A stretch of DNA of 10,364 nt from Chloroflexota bacterium. Its GTDB lineage: Bacteria > Chloroflexota > Limnocylindria > Limnocylindrales > CSP1-4. Under the pieces are notes generated by a model. The model worked only from the letters and a program-made list of their open reading frames with translations, made no database searches and was not told where the DNA came from. Shown here piece after piece: positions 509 through 9,471 of the stretch (position 1 is the first letter of the stretch; every line of letters begins with the position of its first letter). A program made the translations under genes and the position numbers. The stretch covers positions 1 to 10,364 of the forward strand of contig JAKAMV010000270.1 of the NCBI GenBank assembly GCA_021812735.1, given 5' to 3'.

Positions 509-1861
509 TCAGAGCATGTATGAGACATCGGAGGCAGCCGTGGGGTAGGCGTAGACCATGTGTCGCAGATCATCCGCCCGCAGGTCCGCGCGGATGGCGA
601 GTGCGAAGAGGTTGATCGTCTCACCCGCATGCTCGCCCAGCAGGTGCGCGCCCAGGATGCGATCCGTGCCCTCCTCGACGAGGACCTTGACGCCGGTGTG
701 AGCGAGCCCGACGCGCCGCGACGAATACCAGCCGGACGTGTCCTGCAGGTTCGTCCGGAAGCGCAGGCCCTGCTCGCGCGCCGCAGCCTCGCCGAGCCCG
801 ACCGCGGCGAGCGGGGGCACCGTGAAGGCGACGCTCGGGATGCCCCGGTAGTCCGGACGGCGATGATTGCCCTTGAGCAGGTTGCTTGCCACGATCCGAC
901 CCTGCATTCCCGCCACCGGCGTGAGCGGGAACCCGCCGCTGGCGACCGCGTCGCCGGCCGCGTAGACCGCCGGGTTCGAGATGCTCTGGAGGTACTCGTT
1001 GACGGTCACGCCCCCCGCCTCGCGGGCCACATCGCCCGCCTCGAGGTCGAGGTCGTCGATCTCCGGGACCCGGCCCGCGCTGTGGACCACGAGATCGGTC
1101 GCGATCGTGCTCGCCGCTCCGCCTCTCGAGACATGGACGAGGAGCTCGTCGCCGTGCCGCTCGAGGCCGGTCACGGCCGTCTCGAGATGGACCGCCACAC
1201 CCAGCTCCCGGGTCGTCTCAACGAGCATGCCGACGAGATCCGGGTCGAAGCGCCGCAGCGGCTGCGGCCCGCGATGGATGATCTCGACGTGGGCGCCGGC
1301 CCGAGCGGCGACGTGGGCGAACTCGAAACCGATGTAGCCCCCGCCGACGAAGACGATCCGGCGGGGCAGGTGCTCGAGTTCCAGGAACTGCGTGCTGGTG
1401 GCCAGGAGCGCCTCGCCGGGGATGCCCAGCTCAGCGTGGCGAGCGCCAGCCGCGATGACGACGTGCTGCGCCGCGAGTGTGTCGTCACCGATGCGGAGGG
1501 TTGTCCGGTCGACGAAGCGGGCTCGCCCGTGGGCCATCCCGATGCCCGCCCGGGCGAAGGCCGCCTCGTTCGCTTCGGGCACCGATTCCGTGAACGTGCG
1601 CTTGAAGCGCATGAGCGCGGGCCAGTCGATGGCCGAAGGGCCCGCGCCTGCGCCACGGCCCGCCATCCTGCGGTTCCAGTCGGCCAGCTCGGCCCCCCCG
1701 ACGAGCACCTTCTTGGGGTCGCAGCCCCGCAGCTCGCAGGTGCCGCCGAAGGGCCGCGAGTCGATCACCGAGACGCTCCAGCCGGCCGAGCGACACTCGT
1801 ACGCCACGGCGGCGGCAGCAGCGCCGGTCCCGATCACGGCCAGGTCGACCGTCGAATGCAT
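509..1861 (-). CDS. Class I pyridine nucleotide-disulfide-type FAD oxidoreductase lacking the C-terminal His-Glu pair
   Basis: A 450-residue flavoprotein of the glutathione reductase/dihydrolipoamide dehydrogenase/mercuric reductase family. Visible in order are an FAD-binding Rossmann start (DLAVIGTGAAA, residues 6-16), the redox-active disulfide in GGTCELRGCDPKK (Cys42 and Cys47), an NAD(P)-binding motif VGGGYIGFEF (172-181), the second FAD motif VYAAGDAV, and a complete dimerisation domain. In true disulfide reductases the C-terminus carries HPTxxE, the acid-base pair. Here it reads YPTAASD, with Tyr439 for His and Ser444 (then Asp445) for Glu, so lipoamide or glutathione disulfide reduction is doubtful. 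The substrate is unknown. ATG 1861 is chosen because it starts right at the fold, has GGGAG 7 bases upstream, and lies 31 bases after the upstream membrane-protein gene; a start at 1924 would overlap that gene. The two form a probable operon. Cytoplasmic. Confidence 0.92.
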   Translation of the reverse strand: MHSTVDLAVIGTGAAAAAVAYECRSAGWSVSVIDSRPFGGTCELRGCDPKKVLVGGAELADWNRRMAGRGAGAGPSAIDWPALMRFKRTFTESVPEANEAAFARAGIGMAHGRARFVDRTTLRIGDDTLAAQHVVIAAGARHAELGIPGEALLATSTQFLELEHLPRRIVFVGGGYIGFEFAHVAARAGAHVEIIHRGPQPLRRFDPDLVGMLVETTRELGVAVHLETAVTGLERHGDELLVHVSRGGAASTIATDLVVHSAGRVPEIDDLDLEAGDVAREAGGVTVNEYLQSISNPAVYAAGDAVASGGFPLTPVAGMQGRIVASNLLKGNHRRPDYRGIPSVAFTVPPLAAVGLGEAAAREQGLRFRTNLQDTSGWYSSRRVGLAHTGVKVLVEEGTDRILGAHLLGEHAGETINLFALAIRADLRADDLRHMVYAYPTAASDVSYML

Positions 1862-1892
1862 GTCCGTGCTCCCGGATCTCTGCTCTTCCCGA

Positions 1893-2411
1893 TCAGGCGC
1901 GGGACGGATGAGAGGCGCGCGCAAGGATCAGCCCGAGCACCGAGCCGAAGAAGAACGTGTGGGCCACGAACTGAACCGCGGCGTTCGTGTTGTCGGGGAA
2001 CCAGGTCCAGCCGAACAGGTTGGCGAGGAGGTAGAAGTTGACGATCCAGAGCAGGAACCCGGCCACGCTGGCGCTGGCGACGATGGTGCCCCACGAGCGC
2101 GCGAGCTGCGGCACGCTGGCGATGACCGCCGCGAGGATCACGCCGAACATCATCGAGAGGACCATGTGGATCACGAGCCCTGTGCCCCCGGCGCTGAGGA
2201 GCGAGGTGCCCGGCATGAGGGCGGACTGCCCGAGGGCGATGCCGCCGATCATGCGGAGCGGCATGAAGAAGGCGGCGCTGCCGTTGAGCACGAGCGCCAT
2301 CATCATCTCGAACATCGCGAACACGATGCCCGCGACGATGCCGCCCGCGATCCCGTAGCGGAGCCAGTGGCTCGGCTCGCTGCGCGCTCGATCGAATGTT
2401 GTCGTTGCCAT
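1893..2411 (-). CDS. Small multi-helix membrane protein of unknown function
   Basis: The product has 172 residues. After a short charged N-terminus it has hydrophobic segments at about residues 19-42, 70-95, 105-130 and 143-163, plus a weaker one near 45-62, so four or five transmembrane helices. Polar residues inside or next to helices include a His in GLVIHMVLSMMFG, an Asn in WIVNFY and a His in FVAHTFFFG. I do not recognise a named family. The ATG at 2411 is preferred over one at 2426 because GGAGG lies 8 bases before it. The flavoprotein gene follows 31 bases downstream, so the two are probably co-transcribed and may work together in a membrane-linked redox step (inference). A CRP-like operator and a good -10 element lie upstream. 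Confidence 0.85.
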   Translation of the reverse strand: MATTTFDRARSEPSHWLRYGIAGGIVAGIVFAMFEMMMALVLNGSAAFFMPLRMIGGIALGQSALMPGTSLLSAGGTGLVIHMVLSMMFGVILAAVIASVPQLARSWGTIVASASVAGFLLWIVNFYLLANLFGWTWFPDNTNAAVQFVAHTFFFGSVLGLILARASHPSRA

Positions 2412-2446
2412 TGGTAGATCCTCCATGGGATGAACTGGATGGTTCG

Positions 2447-2452
2447 ACCGTA
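2447..2452 (-). promoter_or_regulatory. Candidate -10 element of the membrane protein-flavoprotein operon
   Basis: On the minus strand this reads TACGGT, a full match to TAnnnT. With a start point at 2440 it sits at -12 to -7 and the CRP-like site upstream is centred at -41.5. The leader would then be 29 bases, containing the GGAGG ribosome binding site. Confidence 0.5.
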
Positions 2453-2474
2453 TGCCTGCACCCCGGTCGCCGCC

Positions 2475-2488
2475 GTGATGCAGGACAC
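2475..2488 (-). promoter_or_regulatory. CRP-like operator, copy 2 (GTGTCCTGCATCAC)
   Basis: Minus strand GTGT-CCTGCA-TCAC, identical in all 14 bases to the copy at 8056-8069. It lies in the 160-bp gap between the membrane-protein start and the DsrE stop. Its centre at 2481.5 is at -41.5 relative to the start point set by the TACGGT box. Nothing else was recognised in this gap. Confidence 0.65.
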
Positions 2489-2571
2489 ACCGGCGGTCTC
2501 ACCAGCCGCAGTCGATCATCGGTTGACCGTTCGTTCGGCGACAGGCGGCCGGGTCGGTGGATTGCCGCCGC

Positions 2572-2949
2572 TCACAGGATCCACACGGCGAATCCCTCCG
2601 CCACGTGCGAGACGACGCTCGGATGGTCCATGTAGGCCGCGGTCAGGAGCTCACCTGCCTGCACGAGCTGATCCCGGACGTCGAAGGCGCCCGCGCAGTA
2701 GTCGCAGACCTCATAGGTCAGCCCGCCGTCGGTCAGCTCGCGGAACAGCGCGGCGAGACGGCCTCCCTGCTGCGCTGGATCACGGAGGCGCGCCAGCCAC
2801 TCGGTGCCGGCACCGTCAAAGGTCAGCCGGACGGTCGCACCCGCCTCGTGCAACTCCTTGGCGTACAGAAGGGCGTGCAGTGCCCGGGCCTGGCCCTCGT
2901 GGGTCTCGGTGCCGGCCTGGAGGATGATAAGGATGCGCGTGTCGTTCGT
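2572..2949 (-). CDS. DsrE/DsrF-like thiol protein, probable ACG start
   Basis: A 125-residue protein with the DsrE-like fold pattern: a first strand TRILIILQAGTETHEG, then LHALLYAKELHEAGATVRL, and a CDYC motif (Cys82 and Cys85, in EVCDYCAGAFDV) followed by HPSVVSHVAEGF. DsrE-family proteins are small cytoplasmic proteins that often carry or relay sulfur on cysteines; here the CxxC pair is the likely reactive site. The frame is open far upstream, but no ATG, GTG or TTG occurs near the natural N-terminus. The codon where the initiator Met belongs is ACG (2949-2947), 6 bases after AAGGAG. Either ACG is used, or a single base differs from ATG by mutation or sequencing error. Transcribed divergently from the thioredoxin gene. 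Confidence 0.84.
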   Translation of the reverse strand, partial: TNDTRILIILQAGTETHEGQARALHALLYAKELHEAGATVRLTFDGAGTEWLARLRDPAQQGGRLAALFRELTDGGLTYEVCDYCAGAFDVRDQLVQAGELLTAAYMDHPSVVSHVAEGFAVWIL

Positions 2950-3163
2950 GGCAGTCTCCTTTCTCTGTCGACCCGCGGCAGGGCCGGTTCCGTCGTGTGC
3001 GATCGACGCGCTGTCTTCGCGACACGGCCGCGTGCCAGCCCATCGTGCAGGCGCGTAACGCGCCCATCCGTAGCGTCGCTTACATTCACCGCGCCCCTGC
3101 GCGGATAGGGTTCCCGACATCGCGCCGAGCCGTGGAGCCGGCGGAGAAAGGGAACTGGGTCGG
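2950..3163. promoter_or_regulatory. Divergent intergenic region between the DsrE-like and thioredoxin genes
   Basis: This 214-bp gap must carry promoters for both genes. It contains a perfect hairpin CCGCGC-CCCT-GCGCGG at 3089-3104, directly followed by TAGGGT at 3106-3111, which could serve as a -10 element for the thioredoxin gene. A short TGTC-N5-GACA inverted repeat lies at 3012-3024. No copy of the CRP-like operator was found here. No convincing -35 box was seen. Confidence 0.35.
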
Positions 3164-3505
3164 ATGGCTGAGATCAAGCACGCAACCGACGAGACCTTCG
3201 AGGCACTCGTCCTGGACAACCCGAAGCCCGTCGTCGTCGACTTCTGGGCAAGCTGGTGCGGGCCGTGTCGCATGGTCGCACCCGAGCTCGAGAAGCTCGC
3301 CTCGAAGTACGCGGACAGCGTCGAAGTGGTCAAAGTCGATGTCGACGCCAGCCCGCGCCTCTCCCGCACCTACAACATCCTTTCGATCCCGACGATCGCG
3401 TTCTTTGCGCCCGGTGAACCGCCGCGCGGCGTGGTCGGAGTGCAGCGCCTCGAGCAGCTCGAGGAGGTGTTCGGGCTCACGGGGCACGATTCAATGCTCC
3501 GCTGA
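3164..3505 (+). CDS. trxA: Thioredoxin
   Basis: A 113-residue single-domain thioredoxin, the usual size. It has the active site WCGPC at residues 31-35 within VVVDFWASWCGPCRM, the buried Asp26, the cis-proline at Pro76 in SIPT, and the expected strand VEVVKVDVD in between. It reduces protein disulfides in the cytoplasm and needs a thioredoxin reductase; the fusion protein at 8197-9471 is a candidate partner. The ATG at 3164 starts right at the fold. A purine-rich GAGAAAGGGAA stretch lies a little farther upstream than ideal. It is transcribed alone: the next plus-strand gene starts 210 bases later. Confidence 0.97.
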   Translation: MAEIKHATDETFEALVLDNPKPVVVDFWASWCGPCRMVAPELEKLASKYADSVEVVKVDVDASPRLSRTYNILSIPTIAFFAPGEPPRGVVGVQRLEQLEEVFGLTGHDSMLR

Positions 3506-3715
3506 ACCCGGAACGGCCGCCTGTCGTGCCGCACGCCGGCGACCGTGACTCAAGGTCGGGCGCCGCGGATGGCTGCGCCGGAGCGGCTCGGTGCCCGCCC
3601 GCCAGCGACGACTGGGGCGTCGGGAGACCGGCGTCGCAGTGCGGCCCGCCGACCGTACCATGTGGATCTCGCAGCGGCGCCATGCCGCGCGAATGGAGAG
3701 GAAAGGGGGTACCCA
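3506..3715 (+). other. Intergenic region before the substrate-binding protein gene
   Basis: 210 bases between the thioredoxin stop and the lipoprotein start. The only clear signal is the purine-rich ribosome binding site GGAGAGGAAAGGGGG near 3694-3710, just before the GTG at 3716. No strong terminator, operator or CRP-like site was seen. Confidence 0.4.
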
Positions 3716-4768
3716 GTGCGGTTCCACCGCATGCTGGCCCTCGGGGCGTCTGCGCTGGTGCTCGCGAGCGCCTGCGGGACGGGAGGGGGCAGCACCCCGG
3801 CCGCCACGGTCGCGCCGGTCACCCAGCCATCCAGCCAGGCCAGCGCGCCCGCCTCGGCGGCTCCGTCGGCCCCGGCATCGCCGGCCGCGTCGGTCGCGGC
3901 AGCGTCCGCGGCGGCCAACTCGATCGCCAGTCGCCTCGTCCTCGGCGGCCCGCCCGAGTGCCCGCAGCGGCCGTTCTGCCTGATCGGGCTGCAGAAGGTC
4001 TACGGGCTGACGTTCAAGTCGTTCGTCCCGCTCGACGCGGGCGGTCCGCTCACGGTCGCGGCGCTGCAGACCGGCAAGGTGCAGGTCGGGCTGCTCTTCA
4101 CGTCCGACCCCAGCATCCAGGTCGACGGGTTCGTCCTGCTCAACGACGACCAGCACCTGCAGGCCTCCGACAACATCGCCCCGGTCATCCGGACGGCGGT
4201 GCTCACCGCGCATCCCGACCTCGCGACCCTGCTCAACGAGATCTCCGCCAAGCTCACGCAGACGCAGCTCACCTCGCTCAACAAGCAGGTCACGGTGGAC
4301 AAGACGGACCCCGCCGACGTGGCCCGCGCCTGGCTCCAGCAGCAGGGCTTCGTGCCGACCGGCGGCGCCCACAAGGGCACGATCGTGGTGGGCTCCACCA
4401 ACTTCTCCGAGCAGCTGGTGCTCGCGGAGCTCTACGCCCAGCAGCTGCAGGCGAACGGCTACACGGTGACCCGCAAGTTCAACCTGGGGAGCCGGGAGGT
4501 CGTCCAGCCGGCCATCCAGAGCGGCCAGATCGACCTCTACCCGGAGTACCTCGCCTCGCTCACCGAGTACCTCGACAAGGGCACCGGGCTCGCCACCACC
4601 GACCCGGCGAAGACCTCGCAGGTCCTCGCCGGCCTGCTCGCCCCGAAGGGCGAGTCGGTGCTGGCCTATGCCCCGGCCACCGACGAGAACGGGTTCGCCG
4701 TCACGAAGCAGACCGCGCAGCAGTACGGGCTGGTCAACATCAGCGACCTCGCCAGGCCCGCGCCGTAG
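3716..4768 (+). CDS. OpuAC-type substrate-binding lipoprotein with swapped half-domains
   Basis: A 350-residue exported protein. Residues 1-20 are a signal peptide ending in LASAC, so Cys20 is the likely lipid anchor; residues 21-70 are an Ala/Pro/Ser linker. The rest resembles the quaternary-amine (glycine betaine/choline) binding protein family OpuAC/ProX, but in reversed half order. Residues 72-213 (RLVLGGPPECPQRPFC to ADVARAWLQQQGF) match the part that normally ends the protein. Residues 219-346 (HKGTIVVGSTNFSEQ to LVNISDLA) match the part that normally begins it. Each half occurs once, joined by about six residues (VPTGGA). It may fold as a circular permutant, or be a relic of a tandem pair that lost its outer halves. 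The start is GTG 3716 with a strong purine-rich site upstream. No permease or ATPase gene is adjacent, so its transporter is elsewhere or absent. Confidence 0.93.
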   Translation: MRFHRMLALGASALVLASACGTGGGSTPAATVAPVTQPSSQASAPASAAPSAPASPAASVAAASAAANSIASRLVLGGPPECPQRPFCLIGLQKVYGLTFKSFVPLDAGGPLTVAALQTGKVQVGLLFTSDPSIQVDGFVLLNDDQHLQASDNIAPVIRTAVLTAHPDLATLLNEISAKLTQTQLTSLNKQVTVDKTDPADVARAWLQQQGFVPTGGAHKGTIVVGSTNFSEQLVLAELYAQQLQANGYTVTRKFNLGSREVVQPAIQSGQIDLYPEYLASLTEYLDKGTGLATTDPAKTSQVLAGLLAPKGESVLAYAPATDENGFAVTKQTAQQYGLVNISDLARPAP

Positions 4769-4769
4769 C

Positions 4770-4814
4770 GAGCGCAGGGCCACGATGCGGGCCGGCCCGC
4801 ATCGTGAGACGCTC
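4770..4814. terminator. 26-bp perfect palindrome between convergent genes
   Basis: CACGATGCGGGCC (4781-4793) is followed directly by its exact reverse complement (4794-4806). An outer GAGCG/CGCTC pair (4770-4774, 4810-4814) extends the stem across a small bulge. It starts 2 bases after the lipoprotein stop and lies about 40 bases from the stop of the minus-strand DinB-like gene, so it can end transcripts from both sides. There is no T tract, as is common in very GC-rich genomes. Confidence 0.7.
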
Positions 4815-4853
4815 GGCGCCTGTGAAAGCAGCTGGCTTCCGCGGAGGCGCCGC

Positions 4854-5459
4854 CTACTCTCCAGTCCCATCGATGGCCATCGTCGTCACCAGTCGGTCGA
4901 GCTGCTCGAGGTGCATGAGGTCGTGCACGCCGGCGAAGAGAAGCCAGCCCCCGCACCGGAAATGGCCGACCAGCGGGTGGTCAAGCTCGCATGGGTCGGA
5001 CTCGTGCCCCGCGACACGGAGGGCGGCGCGCTCGATGAATCGCTGGCTGCGGGCGAGGGATTGGTGCAGGGCGGGAAGGGTGACATCCTCGCGACCGGCC
5101 AGACCGGGCACGACAGAGCCAGCTGCTGACGGCCAACGTCCCGTGGCCGTCAGCAGCGCGGCGAGGGCAAGACCCTCCCGCGCGGCGATCATGTGCCCGA
5201 TGGTCTGGACGATGCTCCAGTCCCCCGTGGCGCCCGACGCGGCCAGCATGCCCGGAGGGACCGCGGCCAGGAGGCCGGCGACGTGTCGGGCGACGGCCGC
5301 GTGCTCGGCGGCCAGTCGAGCCGCCGAGCCCGGCCCGGACCTTACGCGGCACGCCTGCTTCATCGCCTGGAGCCGACCGTTCCGGTACGCGCGATACGGC
5401 GCCACGAAGTCCGGCGCGGCGTCCACCAGTTCGCGGAGCCATCCGGGGTCCGATTTCAT
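4854..5459 (-). CDS. DinB/YfiT-like metalloprotein
   Basis: A 201-residue helical protein with the pattern of the DinB superfamily: a first His in a long helix (GDWSIVQTIGHMIAARE, His89) and an HxxxH pair near the end (GVHDLMHLEQLDRL, His179 and His183). These three His normally hold a metal ion. Family members include thiol-dependent transferases (bacillithiol or mycothiol S-transferases) and stress proteins of unknown role, so a thiol-linked detoxification function fits the neighbourhood but is inference. The ATG at 5459 has GAGGGGG 7 bases upstream. The open frame continues far upstream but without family resemblance. It is divergent from the DUF1684 gene and convergent with the lipoprotein gene. 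Confidence 0.85.
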   Translation of the reverse strand: MKSDPGWLRELVDAAPDFVAPYRAYRNGRLQAMKQACRVRSGPGSAARLAAEHAAVARHVAGLLAAVPPGMLAASGATGDWSIVQTIGHMIAAREGLALAALLTATGRWPSAAGSVVPGLAGREDVTLPALHQSLARSQRFIERAALRVAGHESDPCELDHPLVGHFRCGGWLLFAGVHDLMHLEQLDRLVTTMAIDGTGE

Positions 5460-5654: not shown

Positions 5655-6326
5655 GTGTCGCTGACGCTGCTGGACTGGCGGCGAGCCGTCGCCGCACTCT
5701 ACGCCGACGTCCGCGCCGCCCGGCCGGGCGGCGCGGCTGAGGCGCTCGCGCGCTTCCGCGCCGGCCGCGACCGGCTGTTCCGCGAGCACCCGGACTCGCC
5801 CCTGCCCCCGGAGGCGCGCGCCGCCTTCGGCGGGATCCCGTACTGGCCCCACGACCCGACGCTCCGCTTCGCGGCGGAGGTCGAACCTCTGCCGCCGATC
5901 GCGACGGTGGCCGTCAGCCTGGACGGGGAGGAGTTCCCCCTCGAGCGGATCGGCCGCGTCCGCCTGCCCGTTGGCGATCTCGAGATCTACTGGATCGCGG
6001 TGTACGGCGGCGGGGTCTTCGTCCCGTTCCGGGATGCGACCTCCGGAACCGAGACCTACGCGGCGGGGCGCTACCTGCTCGACACGGTGAAGGGCGCGGA
6101 TCTCGGGGGCTCGGGCGGGCGCCTGGTCCTCGACTTCAATTACGCCTACCACCCTTCGTGCGCCTACGATCCACGCTGGAGCTGCCCACTTGCTCCGCCC
6201 TCCAACCGGCTGAACGCGGCGATCAGGGCCGGGGAACGCCTGGCGAGGCATCCACTCCCTGGCGCCGTCTCGAACTCAACCCCGGAGCGTGACGGCGCCG
6301 CCCGGCTTGGCCGACGCCGTCCGTAG
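5655..6326 (+). CDS. DUF1684 family protein
   Basis: A 223-residue protein with the pattern of DUF1684: an N-terminal helix (LDWRRAVAALYADVR), FREHPDSPLPPEARAAFGGIPYWPHDPTLRF, then a beta-rich domain with FVPFRDATSGTETYAAGRYL and the signature LDFNYAYHPSCAYDPRWSCPL (split around residues 158-178) followed by PPSNRLNAAIRAGER. The function of the family is not established. The last 25 or so residues are a low-complexity tail. The GTG at 5655 is chosen because GGAG lies 7 bases upstream and the fold begins directly after it; the frame is open further upstream but only opposite the DinB-like gene. There is no signal peptide, so it is probably cytoplasmic. Confidence 0.9.
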   Translation: MSLTLLDWRRAVAALYADVRAARPGGAAEALARFRAGRDRLFREHPDSPLPPEARAAFGGIPYWPHDPTLRFAAEVEPLPPIATVAVSLDGEEFPLERIGRVRLPVGDLEIYWIAVYGGGVFVPFRDATSGTETYAAGRYLLDTVKGADLGGSGGRLVLDFNYAYHPSCAYDPRWSCPLAPPSNRLNAAIRAGERLARHPLPGAVSNSTPERDGAARLGRRRP

Positions 6327-6412: not shown

Positions 6413-7168
6413 TCACTCGCTGTCGCCTTCCGCGATCTCGGTCAGTCGCTGCGCGTCGCGGATCACGACCTGGTGCGCGACCGTGTCGAGCAGACCCCGC
6501 CGCCGAAAGTCCGCGAGTGTGTGGGCGAGCGTCTCGCGCGTCGTGCCGATCATGTCCGCGAGCTCCTGCTGGGTGAGGCGCGCTTCGATGAGGGTACCCC
6601 GGACGGTCTTCACGCCGAACCGCTGGCCGAGGTCGATGAGGCGGTGCGCCAAGCGCTGGCCGACGCGCTGGTAGGCCATCGCCTCAAGCTCGCGCTCAGC
6701 CTCCTGGAGGCGACGCGAGAGGTGTCGGATGACGTTGAGCCCGATCGTCGGGTAGCGCTCGATGAGCTTACGCAGCTCGTCCGGGGTGATCGTGCAGATC
6801 ACTGCCTCGTCGAGCGTCTCGGCGTACGCCTCGGGGAGACGATCCTGACCGAGCAGGGTCATGTCACCGAGGATGGTGCCCTTCTCGTAGATGTCGAGCG
6901 TCAGTTGCTTGCCGTCGGGCGTCATGCGATACATGCGGACGCGGCCCTTCTTCAGGATATGGATGCGATCAGGCTGATCTTCAGGCGAGAGGATCCGCTG
7001 GCCGACGGTGCAGTGGGTCATCGTGGTGGCGTGCCCGATTGCCTCGATGTCGGACGGGCCCAGGCCCGCGAACAGCTCGAGCTCGCGCAGCAGGCCGAGC
7101 TTCTCGGCCAGCGAGCGGCTCGCCGGGCGATCTGAGACTGCGCCGGTCACGGAGGCCATTGTAGGCAT
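6413..7168 (-). CDS. Crp/Fnr-family transcription regulator without the cAMP-binding residues
   Basis: A 251-residue regulator with an N-terminal cyclic-nucleotide-binding-type beta barrel (about residues 30-140), a dimerisation helix (about 145-175) and a C-terminal winged helix (about 180-235). The recognition helix GTTRETLAHTLADF has Arg211 and Glu212, equivalent to Arg180 and Glu181 of E. coli CRP, and His216 where CRP has Arg185. This predicts reading of GTG-type half-sites. The phosphate-binding cassette is altered: GDMTLLGQ in place of GELGLF, and Pro112-Glu113-Ala114 in place of Arg-Ser-Ala, so cAMP binding is unlikely. There is no N-terminal Cys cluster for an Fe-S centre; the signal is unknown. 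The ATG at 7168 shares its A with the nnrE stop (TGATG), indicating translational coupling; an alternative ATG lies at 7159. It is the likely reader of the GTGT-N6-TCAC sites. Confidence 0.94.
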   Translation of the reverse strand: MPTMASVTGAVSDRPASRSLAEKLGLLRELELFAGLGPSDIEAIGHATTMTHCTVGQRILSPEDQPDRIHILKKGRVRMYRMTPDGKQLTLDIYEKGTILGDMTLLGQDRLPEAYAETLDEAVICTITPDELRKLIERYPTIGLNVIRHLSRRLQEAERELEAMAYQRVGQRLAHRLIDLGQRFGVKTVRGTLIEARLTQQELADMIGTTRETLAHTLADFRRRGLLDTVAHQVVIRDAQRLTEIAEGDSE

Positions 7169-7962
7169 CACGACGCGAGTTCCACGATGCGACCGGTGGC
7201 GAAAGGTGCGTCGACGGCCAGGCCGAGCCGGGCGTAGAGCGCGGCGGGAAGGCCCAGGTCGGCGAGGTACAGTCGGCCCGCATGGGACCGGCCCGTCGGC
7301 GTGAGCAGCCCACGCTTGGGGAGCGCGAGGGTGAGCGTCGCGGTCGCGTTGATGGCGATCCCGGGTGCCTCCCCGGTGTCCGGGTCCAGGCCGGACGGCA
7401 GATCGAGGCTCAGGATCGGCCGGCCCGCGCTGCTGACCCGCTCCAGCAGAGCCGCCACGTCTCCTCGCGGCGGTCCTGCGATGTTGTACCCGAGGAGGGC
7501 GTCGACGACAAGGTCCGCGTTCGCGAGCGCCGCGGTCACCTCGGCGGCCGGCAGGTCGTAGCCGTTCACGCAACACGACACGCTCATGGCGAGCAGTGTG
7601 CCGAGCTGATGGCGCGCGGCTTCGCTGAGCCGGAGGGCGGGGCGAGCGAGGACGACACGGACGTTCGCCCCGCGGTTGGCGAGGTGCCGCGCGGCTGCCA
7701 GGCCGCCCCCGCCGTTGTTGCCCGGGCCGACGACGATCACGATGGAATGGCCGCGCAGGTCGCCCCCCAGCATCAGCCGCGAGAGCTCGGCGAGGTGGGA
7801 GCCGGCCTGTTCCATCATCGCGAGCAGGGGGACGCCGAACTCGCCCAGCGCCAGGCGATCGACCTCTGCCATCTGAGAGGTACTCACGGTGGGGACAAGG
7901 GCCGCCGCCACGCGGGGGGCGTCTGCTGCGGCAGATGCGGTCGTCGAGATCAGCTCGGTCAC
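7168..7962 (-). CDS. nnrE: NAD(P)H-hydrate epimerase-like protein (YjeF N-terminal domain)
   Basis: A 264-residue stand-alone YjeF_N/NnrE domain. Members epimerise damaged NADHX and NADPHX so the dehydratase NnrD can repair them. Visible are TSQMAEVDRLALGEFGVPLLAMMEQAG (positions 28-54, near the usual QM..D and MENAG motifs), the nucleotide-binding loop GPGNNGGGG (79-87), VVDALLGY, LDLPSGLDPDTG, and ALPKRGLL. The loop normally reads GNNGGDG; the Asp is Gly86 here, and MENAG is MEQAG, so activity is less certain. The NnrD domain often fused to it is absent. The start is GTG 7962 with AGGAGGAG 7 bases upstream. It overlaps the Crp/Fnr gene by one base, forming a two-gene operon divergent from the thioredoxin reductase fusion gene. 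Confidence 0.87.
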   Translation of the reverse strand: MTELISTTASAAADAPRVAAALVPTVSTSQMAEVDRLALGEFGVPLLAMMEQAGSHLAELSRLMLGGDLRGHSIVIVVGPGNNGGGGLAAARHLANRGANVRVVLARPALRLSEAARHQLGTLLAMSVSCCVNGYDLPAAEVTAALANADLVVDALLGYNIAGPPRGDVAALLERVSSAGRPILSLDLPSGLDPDTGEAPGIAINATATLTLALPKRGLLTPTGRSHAGRLYLADLGLPAALYARLGLAVDAPFATGRIVELAS

Positions 7963-7976
7963 TCGCGAGCTCCTCC

Positions 7977-8018
7977 TGTGTGCGCCGGACGAACGACTGT
8001 GTGCGCCGGACGAACGAC
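7977..8018. repeat. Two perfect tandem copies of a 21-bp repeat upstream of nnrE
   Basis: Positions 7977-7997 and 7998-8018 are identical 21-bp units that start TGTGTGCGCCGGACG. A related 13-base piece, CTGTGTGCGGCGG, recurs at 8080-8092. The repeat touches the nnrE ribosome binding site, so it lies in the leader or core promoter of nnrE. The 21-bp length equals two DNA turns, as expected for repeated protein sites, but a recent slippage duplication explains it equally well. Confidence 0.85.
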
Positions 8019-8033
8019 GTCACGCCTGTTGGG

Positions 8034-8039
8034 GGTATC
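8034..8039 (-). promoter_or_regulatory. Weak candidate -10 element for nnrE-crp
   Basis: On the minus strand this reads GATACC, the only TA-containing box between the operator and the tandem repeat. It does not place the CRP-like site at -41.5, so this promoter assignment is weak. Confidence 0.2.
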
Positions 8040-8055
8040 GTCTCAGGTCCTCGCT

Positions 8056-8069
8056 GTGATGCAGGACAC
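8056..8069. promoter_or_regulatory. CRP-like operator, copy 3 (GTGTCCTGCATCAC on the minus strand)
   Basis: Identical to the copy at 2475-2488. It lies in the 234-bp divergent region between nnrE-crp and the thioredoxin reductase fusion gene, so it could govern either or both, including autoregulation of crp. Unlike the other two copies, no -10 element sits at the class II distance on either side. A TATGGT box at 8118-8123 would put the site at about -67 for the plus-strand gene. Confidence 0.6.
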
Positions 8070-8082
8070 GCGAATGCGGCTG

Positions 8083-8096
8083 TGTGCGGCGGCACA
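8083..8096. promoter_or_regulatory. Second inverted repeat TGTGC-GGCG-GCACA
   Basis: A perfect 5-bp inverted repeat of TGTG/CACA type lies 13 bases past the CRP-like site, upstream of the thioredoxin reductase fusion gene. It could be another regulator site or a weak hairpin; its spacing differs from the CRP-like motif. Confidence 0.25.
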
Positions 8097-8196
8097 TCTG
8101 ACCTGGCGGGCGGCGCCTATGGTGGCCTGGCGTTGGACCGCGGCCGCCTGGAGAGACCGGGCGGCGATCAGGCCGACAGCAGGACGGGACGGACAC

Positions 8197-9471
8197 GTGG
8201 ATCAGATCGCATTGTATGGGGCGCCCTGGTGCCCTGACTGTCGCCGCTCGAAAGCGTTCCTCATGGAACAGCGGATCCCCTTCAGCTGGATTGACATCGA
8301 CGCCGACGCAGCCGGGCTGCGGTTCGTGGAGGAGCTGCAGCACGGCGGGCGCACCATCCCCACGATCGTCTTCCCTGACGGCAGCCACCTGCTCGAGCCA
8401 TCCAACGCCGAGCTGGCGGAGAAGCTCGGTCTCCGGCTTCGCGCGGAGCGGATGGTCTACGACGTCCTGATCCTCGGCGGCGGCCCGGCCGGGTTGTCGG
8501 CGGCGATCTATGCGGCGCGCGAGGGCCTCGAGGCACTCGTGATCGAACGTGGCGCCCTCGGTGGCCAGGCCGGCACGACCGATCGCATCGACAACTACCC
8601 GGGGTTCCCGGAGGGCATCGGCGGTGCCGAGCTCGCCGGGCGGCTCATTGCCCATGCCCGCCGCTACGGCGTCGAACTGTTGTCAGCCGTGGAGGTCACG
8701 GGCATCCGTCGGGAAGGTAGCTGCGTCATGGTCACCACGGCGTTGGGTGACACGTATGGCGCCGACGCCGCGATCGTCGCAACGGGATCGCGGTACCGCC
8801 GTCTCGGCGTGCCCGGCGAAAGCGGTCTCATCGGTCTCGGCGTCCATTACTGCGCCACGTGCGACGGGCCGTTCTACCGGGGTGCGGGGGAGCTGGTCGT
8901 GATCGGTGGCGGAAACTCGGCGCTCGAGGAGTCGCTCTTCCTCGCCACGCTCGCCGACAAGGTCACCATCCTGACCCGGGGCGAGCTTCGTGCGAGCGAT
9001 CTCGTGAAGGAGGCAGTTCGCTCCAACCCGCAGATCGAGGTCCACACCGGGATGGACATCCTCGACTTCGAGCGGGCGGACGGGCGCCTCGGTGCGGTCC
9101 TGGCGCGGGAGCGGGCGACCGACCAGGTTCGCCGCTTCGAGCCAGCGGCGGCGTTCGTCTTCGTCGGCCTGGATCCGAACACACAGTTCCTCCGTGGCGT
9201 CGTGGACCTCGACGACCAGGGCTTCGTCGTGACCGACGACACGTATGCCACGTCGCTTGCCGGTGTCTATGCGGCGGGCGACGTGCGCGCTGGCGCGACC
9301 AAGCAGGTCGGCAGCGCGGCGGGGGAGGGCATCGCTGCGCTCCTGTCCATCCGGCGAGCCCTGGAGAGGGACCATCTCAAGGCCGTCACCATGATGGACG
9401 AGACAGCGGTGGGAGCCGGCACCGACCGCGTCGCCGGGTCCCGCTCGCGGTCCGGCGGAGTCGGTCGCTGA
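8197..9471 (+). CDS. trxB: Glutaredoxin-thioredoxin reductase fusion
   Basis: A 424-residue two-domain enzyme. Residues 1-82 form a glutaredoxin/mycoredoxin-like domain with CPDC (Cys12 and Cys15) in YGAPWCPDC and the cis-Pro in TIPT (Pro55). From residue 87 a full low-molecular-weight thioredoxin reductase follows: FAD motif GGGPAG (94-99), [16 protein letters not shown], the redox pair CATC (219-222), the NADPH-domain motif GGGNS (237-241) and YAAGDVR near the end. Electrons would flow from NAD(P)H via FAD and the CATC disulfide to thioredoxin, or to the attached CPDC domain. The NADPH-specificity motif, usually HRRxxxR, reads LTRGELR, so coenzyme choice is uncertain. A tail of about 35 Ser/Arg/Gly-rich residues ends the protein. 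The start is GTG 8197, directly at the glutaredoxin fold; the ribosome binding site is weak. It overlaps the rpiB remnant by one base. Confidence 0.96.

Follow-up and report, generated by a model that had tools for sequence, protein, structure and literature searches.

A predicted circularly permuted OpuAC/OsmF-type substrate-binding lipoprotein from a Chloroflexota bacterium and the separate permuted clades of its family

Positions 1 to 10,364 of contig JAKAMV010000270.1 (assembly GCA_021812735.1, a Chloroflexota bacterium of the Limnocylindrales; forward strand), referred to here as the window, contain a gene that very probably encodes a natural circular permutant of a substrate-binding lipoprotein (OpuAC/OsmF type), one that probably works, as predicted from its sequence and from a structure model. 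The half that is C-terminal in canonical proteins begins the chain and the half that is N-terminal there ends it (order C-N rather than N-C). This order is a family trait with further separate origins and not the oddity of one genome: among the sampled relatives from Chloroflexota and Actinomycetota there are at least three separate permuted clades, and the loop that is cut is the same in all of them.

The exchange of the halves had been proposed from the letters of the DNA (the sequence-only reading), and alignment to the Pfam profile OpuAC (PF04069) bears it out: the 350-residue protein scores 178 bits in total against a cut-off of 21.2, in two stretches and in reversed order, the best stretch being residues 68–209 (profile 113–257). 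Scanned singly, the first piece scores 92.3 bits (profile 113–257) and the second 90.2 bits (profile 2–112). The window protein gives no single colinear match across PF04069, whereas the canonical L009 and G407 proteins give one stretch each. The sequence matches in the PDB are also reversed; in the best of them, the ergothioneine-binding EgtUC, chain positions 8–134 align to query residues 223–347 and 154–275 to 89–213. The halves are thus homologous to one parent, exchanged, and conserved in this state over genomes, which is what marks a natural circular permutant. It should be noted, however, that the order which the sequence-only reading took as standard for "OpuAC/ProX" proteins holds for the ProX/OsmF/EgtU branch (the solved ProX, OsmF, OpuBC and EgtU types are canonical) and not for OpuAC of Bacillus subtilis, which is itself "swapped"; the order is unusual solely relative to the ProX/OsmF/EgtU branch, where the window sequence belongs. 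The canonical control listing (50 rows) does not show B. subtilis OpuAC, an absence that excludes nothing, and entry 5nxy, titled OpuAC, has OpuCC as its molecule name. With the OsmF equivalog of NCBIfam (NF049931) the window protein (120.3 bits) and canonical G407 (86.3 bits) both stay under the cut-off of 400.

The homologue search admitted only proteins of 0.55–1.75 times the query length, and its best 120 of 3238 hits, the window protein included, were listed. The C-N order is found in 118 of the 119 others, on contigs of up to 2.36 Mb; in the exception (P0027, 251 amino acids) the C half alone was detected. The best 80 of 324 genome loci comprise seven C-N lipoproteins like that of the window (L001–L007), 29 canonical proteins (L008 showing only part), and 24 proteins of Bacteroidota whose domain is C-N, mostly 515–536 amino acids long and with a permease N-terminal to it. 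The remaining 20, all actinobacterial, have a third order, C2-N-C1, in which the cut is close to the hinge (listed in Table 1). A Pfam scan of six examples agrees with the assigned orders. Altogether 270 entries, duplicate loci included, were classified as C-N (179), N-C (64), C-N-C (22) or C only (5). Sources of the C2-N-C1 proteins include Micromonosporaceae and Cellulomonas, and the examples read have an additional pair of cysteines. Fusions also occur: in Bacteroidota the fused permease comes first and the permuted domain after (e.g., L058, 5290–6858), and in canonical L236 the binding domain comes first and the permease after, in one frame. The N and C halves of the canonical gene in L010 (5803–6638) lie in different frames, either through a sequencing error or because the gene is broken.

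When 301 Chloroflexota genomes were compared with the permuted profile, 127 matched. Among the matches listed, G001, G021, G187 and G203 give a full permuted through-match, and G058 and G235 a weaker one, read as C-N. The proteins of the latter two (L151, L152) are distant from the window clade; one tree puts them close to the Bacteroidota forms, but on long branches. In the taxonomic order of G001, 78 of 126 genomes match and at least 15 have an intact C-N gene among the matches listed; those of G356, G380 and G231 appear to be C-N genes truncated at contig ends. The order of G021 has 14 matching genomes out of 18, five permuted and nine canonical, one of the five (G410) having a shorter frame and a match that stops at residue 286 of 325. 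The order of G419 has 15 out of 27, four of them with a permuted gene. Three of these four (G441, G442 and G446) carry a canonical paralogue in the same genome as the permuted gene. Twenty of 148 Bacteroidota genomes match, eight with a C-N through-match and the other 12 split into two pieces; five of these 12 were fetched and are N-C. With a C2-N-C1 query, 107 of 198 Actinobacteriota genomes match; among the matches listed only G003 is a through-match, and five others that were fetched (G698, G623, G668, G756, G647) are C-N.

For the main tree the halves of 61 rows (42 canonical, 12 A1, 3 A2, 4 A3) were rearranged to one common order. The permuted groups A1 (the clade of the window, 83/82), A2 (100/99) and A3 (97/86) stand apart from one another, A2 nested in a canonical clade (100/99) and A3 in another (96/91), and the starred branches force three changes, as they do in a tree of 56 rows. 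Approximately unbiased (AU) tests reject the union of A1, A2 and A3 (p = 2.8e-8) as well as A1 with A2 (1.1e-4), A1 with A3 (2.4e-4) and A2 with A3 (8.4e-6). The trees of single halves are weaker. Both place A2 nearest to the canonical rows of G407 and G115, and permuted and canonical proteins are separated by five changes in the N half and five in the C half. In the first quick tree (77 rows) the starred branches force only two changes for A. A candidate fourth clade, which is actinobacterial (L230, L232, L233), brings four permuted/canonical changes in a quick tree. The motif IAS before LVLGG was considered as a mark of single origin and rejected because canonical L020 carries it too, as does canonical L108 with V for I.

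The permutation can be seen within one and the same operon, since the operons of G407 and G203 (divergent ATPase gene, two permease genes, binding-protein gene) align at 72–80% DNA identity with only the halves exchanged: G407 4466–4845 pairs with G203 4569–4948, and G407 4857–5257 with G203 4132–4532. The canonical gene of G407 and the permuted protein of G203, both from the order of G021, are 75% identical in each half. A comparison of the two downstream regions revealed no residual half-copy.

The AlphaFold model of the window protein (predicted local distance difference test, pLDDT, 94) superposes end to end on B. subtilis OpuAC, with the same chain order over the whole fold, and supports the reading as a natural circular permutant that should fold. 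In EgtUC, lobe D1 comprises residues 232–331 and 445–503 and lobe D2 residues 341–432 (PMC9732360); this numbering equals the chain index plus 229, as verified at K242, F293 and T296. In the alignments the cut maps inside D2, between the positions that correspond to residues 363 and 366 of EgtUC, and A1, A2 and A3 are opened in one loop, after SDLA and before (I/V)AS. The old termini, both in D1, would have been connected by a short linker and the chain opened in D2. Because the cut falls inside D2, the permutation would make D1 contiguous and split D2, and the N-terminal lipid anchor would shift from D1 to D2.

As judged by alignment, the cleft is untouched by the permutation. EgtUC residues F293, N339, Y341, Y419 and Y443 correspond to Y278, N325, F327, F128 and D152 of the window protein, T296 to S281 and K242 to T228; E375 and R379 would correspond to E81 and R85, which, being read through an alignment of L009 with Archaeoglobus fulgidus ProX, is less sure. 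The 42 canonical relatives have Y at the F293 site in 41 cases, N at the N339 site in 40, F at the Y341 site in 40 and D or E at the Y443 site in 39; the K242 site varies in all groups. Compared with the four-sided aromatic cage of quaternary-amine binding proteins (subcluster F-III), three aligned sites are aromatic (Y278, F327, F128) and the fourth is D152. The ligand is probably a cationic solute and perhaps not glycine betaine. The protein, whose cleft residues are like those of its unpermuted relatives, would bind such a small solute in its cleft, and the solute would pass to a two-permease ATP-binding cassette (ABC) importer.

In all seven loci L001–L007 the permuted gene is preceded, on its own strand, by ATPase and permease genes. 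The DNA likeness between the window and L001–L003 starts at 3670–3717 and stops at 4761–4779, and there is a rearrangement or contig misjoin between 3505 and ~3670. Within 3164–3670 a thioredoxin gene takes the place of the relatives' permeases; a thioredoxin relative is present in eight of eight related genomes (best matches 42–70% identity), and the DinB-like flank gene has a weak match in one of the eight. The window also has a DUF1684 gene (~5655–6323, + strand); such a gene is found close to the one for the binding protein in 17 of the 153 loci fetched, among them canonical as well as permuted ones, and lies directly 3′ of the permuted genes in L127 and L136. For this reason the region downstream resembles the usual surroundings of the family, with the break upstream, between the thioredoxin gene and ~3670; the DUF1684 protein is a possible functional partner. 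The guanine-plus-cytosine content stays at 67–74% along the window and does not jump at the gene. Its flanks (509–3505 and 7168–9471) are rich in redox genes, namely those for a disulphide oxidoreductase, a DsrE-like protein, thioredoxin and a glutaredoxin/thioredoxin-reductase-like protein, and between them lie genes for a CRP-type regulator and YjeF_N.

Several observations weigh against a working permutant whose order arose repeatedly. No ATPase or permease gene is present in the 10.4 kb of the window, so that for this copy the importer genes would lie elsewhere or be lost. In Foldseek the ProX-type chains 3mam and 4wep match over the full length with a template-modelling (TM) score of ~0.4 and a root-mean-square deviation of ~8. 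A1 is scattered in the half-trees (three changes in N, two in C), and A3 shows one change in N and two in C; since A1 breaks up there, it may comprise two or more events, or else the signal in single halves is too weak. The tandem duplication with loss of the outer halves that the sequence-only reading proposed is plausible and remains a guess: the N-C-N-C homologues that it pointed to were sought and none was found among the 270 entries, in a search confined to the length range given above, and the route in DNA was not seen in these comparisons. That the window lacks importer genes and that thioredoxin and reductase genes adjoin might suggest a lipoprotein that binds or senses on its own in this organism, its importer role lost; we regard this as quite improbable, for the closest named relatives (L001–L004) keep ATPase and permease genes directly upstream and the cleft residues are conserved. 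The unlike upstream neighbours would also fit a misjoined normal gene or a broken copy. A misjoin inside the window gene cannot explain the half order, however, because nearly all listed homologues share it, on contigs that reach megabase length, and with the intact frame and the confident fold, which agree with the earlier statement that the gene is no obvious pseudogene, an assembly artefact or decay can be dismissed for practical purposes.

As to the origin of the order, one ancient permutation could have given rise to both the window family and B. subtilis OpuAC, all permuted clades being one lineage, as the shared chain order and the common loop of A1, A2 and A3 would allow. This is very improbable: identity to B. 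subtilis OpuAC is 17%, whereas identity to canonical L009 is 64% in the C half and 59% in the N half; the AU tests reject A1+A2+A3 and every pair; and canonical G407 is the neighbour of A2 in the tree of whole rows as well as in that of each half. A single permuted ancestor within the branch, whose descendants regained the canonical order or swapped halves across lineages, is less improbable but still unlikely. Because the tree is unrooted, gain and loss are indistinguishable and returns to canonical order are possible, and the break-up of A1 would fit; reversions are permutations too, however, so that the events are several either way, the two halves of A2 share their canonical neighbours, and the solved types of the branch are canonical. 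For A2, an exchange of halves between lineages is countered by the agreement of both half-trees. Separate permutations in at least three clades are thus the reading that we prefer.

The coordinates are collected in Table 1. The position of the gene and its unbroken frame, from GTG at 3716 to TAG at 4768, are as first described, and the lipobox and ribosome binding site reported with it are legible as a lipobox-like LASA-C20 and a Shine-Dalgarno-like GGAGAGGAAAGGGGG. The terminator named there is represented by a perfect palindrome; the T run is absent, and a scan of 3400–5000 found no terminator-like site on the + strand. An Rfam scan gave no match at gathering thresholds.

Table 1. Features of the permuted gene in the window, and the loci with C2-N-C1 order
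Feature	Position or loci	Strand	Basis
Shine-Dalgarno-like stretch GGAGAGGAAAGGGGG, GTG start 6 bases further on	3695..3709	+	read from sequence
Permuted OpuAC/OsmF-type substrate-binding lipoprotein gene, 350 amino acids + stop	3716..4768	+	open reading frame, Pfam, homologues
Signal peptide and lipobox-like LASA-C20, residues 1–20	3716..3775	+	read from sequence by eye
Ala/Pro/Ser-rich linker, 48 residues (21–68)	3776..3919	+	sequence
Canonical C-terminal half, first in chain, residues 69–213, Pfam profile 113–257	3920..4354	+	PDB hits, Pfam, homologues
Joint of old C and N ends, residues 214–217	4355..4366	+	inferred
Canonical N-terminal half, last in chain, residues 218–347, Pfam profile 2–112	4367..4756	+	PDB hits, Pfam, homologues
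Perfect palindrome, 26 nucleotides, 3′ of gene, without T run	4781..4806		sequence
C2-N-C1 loci	L025, L026, L031, L036–L039, L043–L045, L049, L050, L052, L054, L055, L061, L065, L068, L072, L073		

Circular permutation among these binding proteins is already in print (PMC2395249), and known natural permutants such as the ones described there are distant pairs, with less than 24% identity in that paper. The topology is known from B. subtilis OpuAC; the recurrence and the recency appear new within our literature searches, in which no report of recurrent permutation in the OpuAC family was recognised, as judged on titles and abstract openings. Here the permuted and canonical genes of one operon are still three-quarters identical per half, and the change recurs at one site, which opens the evolution of half order to direct study: nature supplies replicates with which to examine the origin of permutations, whether a permuted protein is functional from the start and whether the choice of tethered lobe makes a difference. 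The Pfam and NCBIfam family names conceal the reversed chain order. A tentative idea, about which we are doubtful, is that natural circular permutation has a hot spot in the OpuAC fold. One and the same loop of D2 would have been opened repeatedly, without the gene leaving its operon and without change to the cleft, because moving the anchor or permease tether from D1 to D2 might be advantageous in some transporter geometries. If so, it would take in A1, A2 and A3, perhaps the fourth actinobacterial clade, the Bacteroidota permease fusions and B. subtilis OpuAC.

Among known systems, TpMglB-2 of Treponema pallidum (PMC4990184) resembles the window protein in being a natural circular permutant that is lipid-anchored and has kept ligand binding; it has a type I fold and another cut, and the available part of the paper describes neither a close canonical sister nor a repeated origin. 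B. subtilis OpuAC (PDB 2B4L, 2B4M, 3CHG, 5NXX) shares the chain order but little sequence, the window protein belonging to the ProX/OsmF/EgtU branch. OsmF/YehZ, A. fulgidus ProX and EgtUC are similar to it in each half, and the pocket positions of EgtUC are shared; they differ in chain order, the window protein has Asp at one aromatic pocket site, and it misses the OsmF equivalog cut-off. The canonical Chloroflexota OpuAC proteins such as L009 are like the window protein in the sequence of both halves, in operon layout and in cleft residues, and differ by having the ProX half order and one Pfam stretch where the window protein has two.
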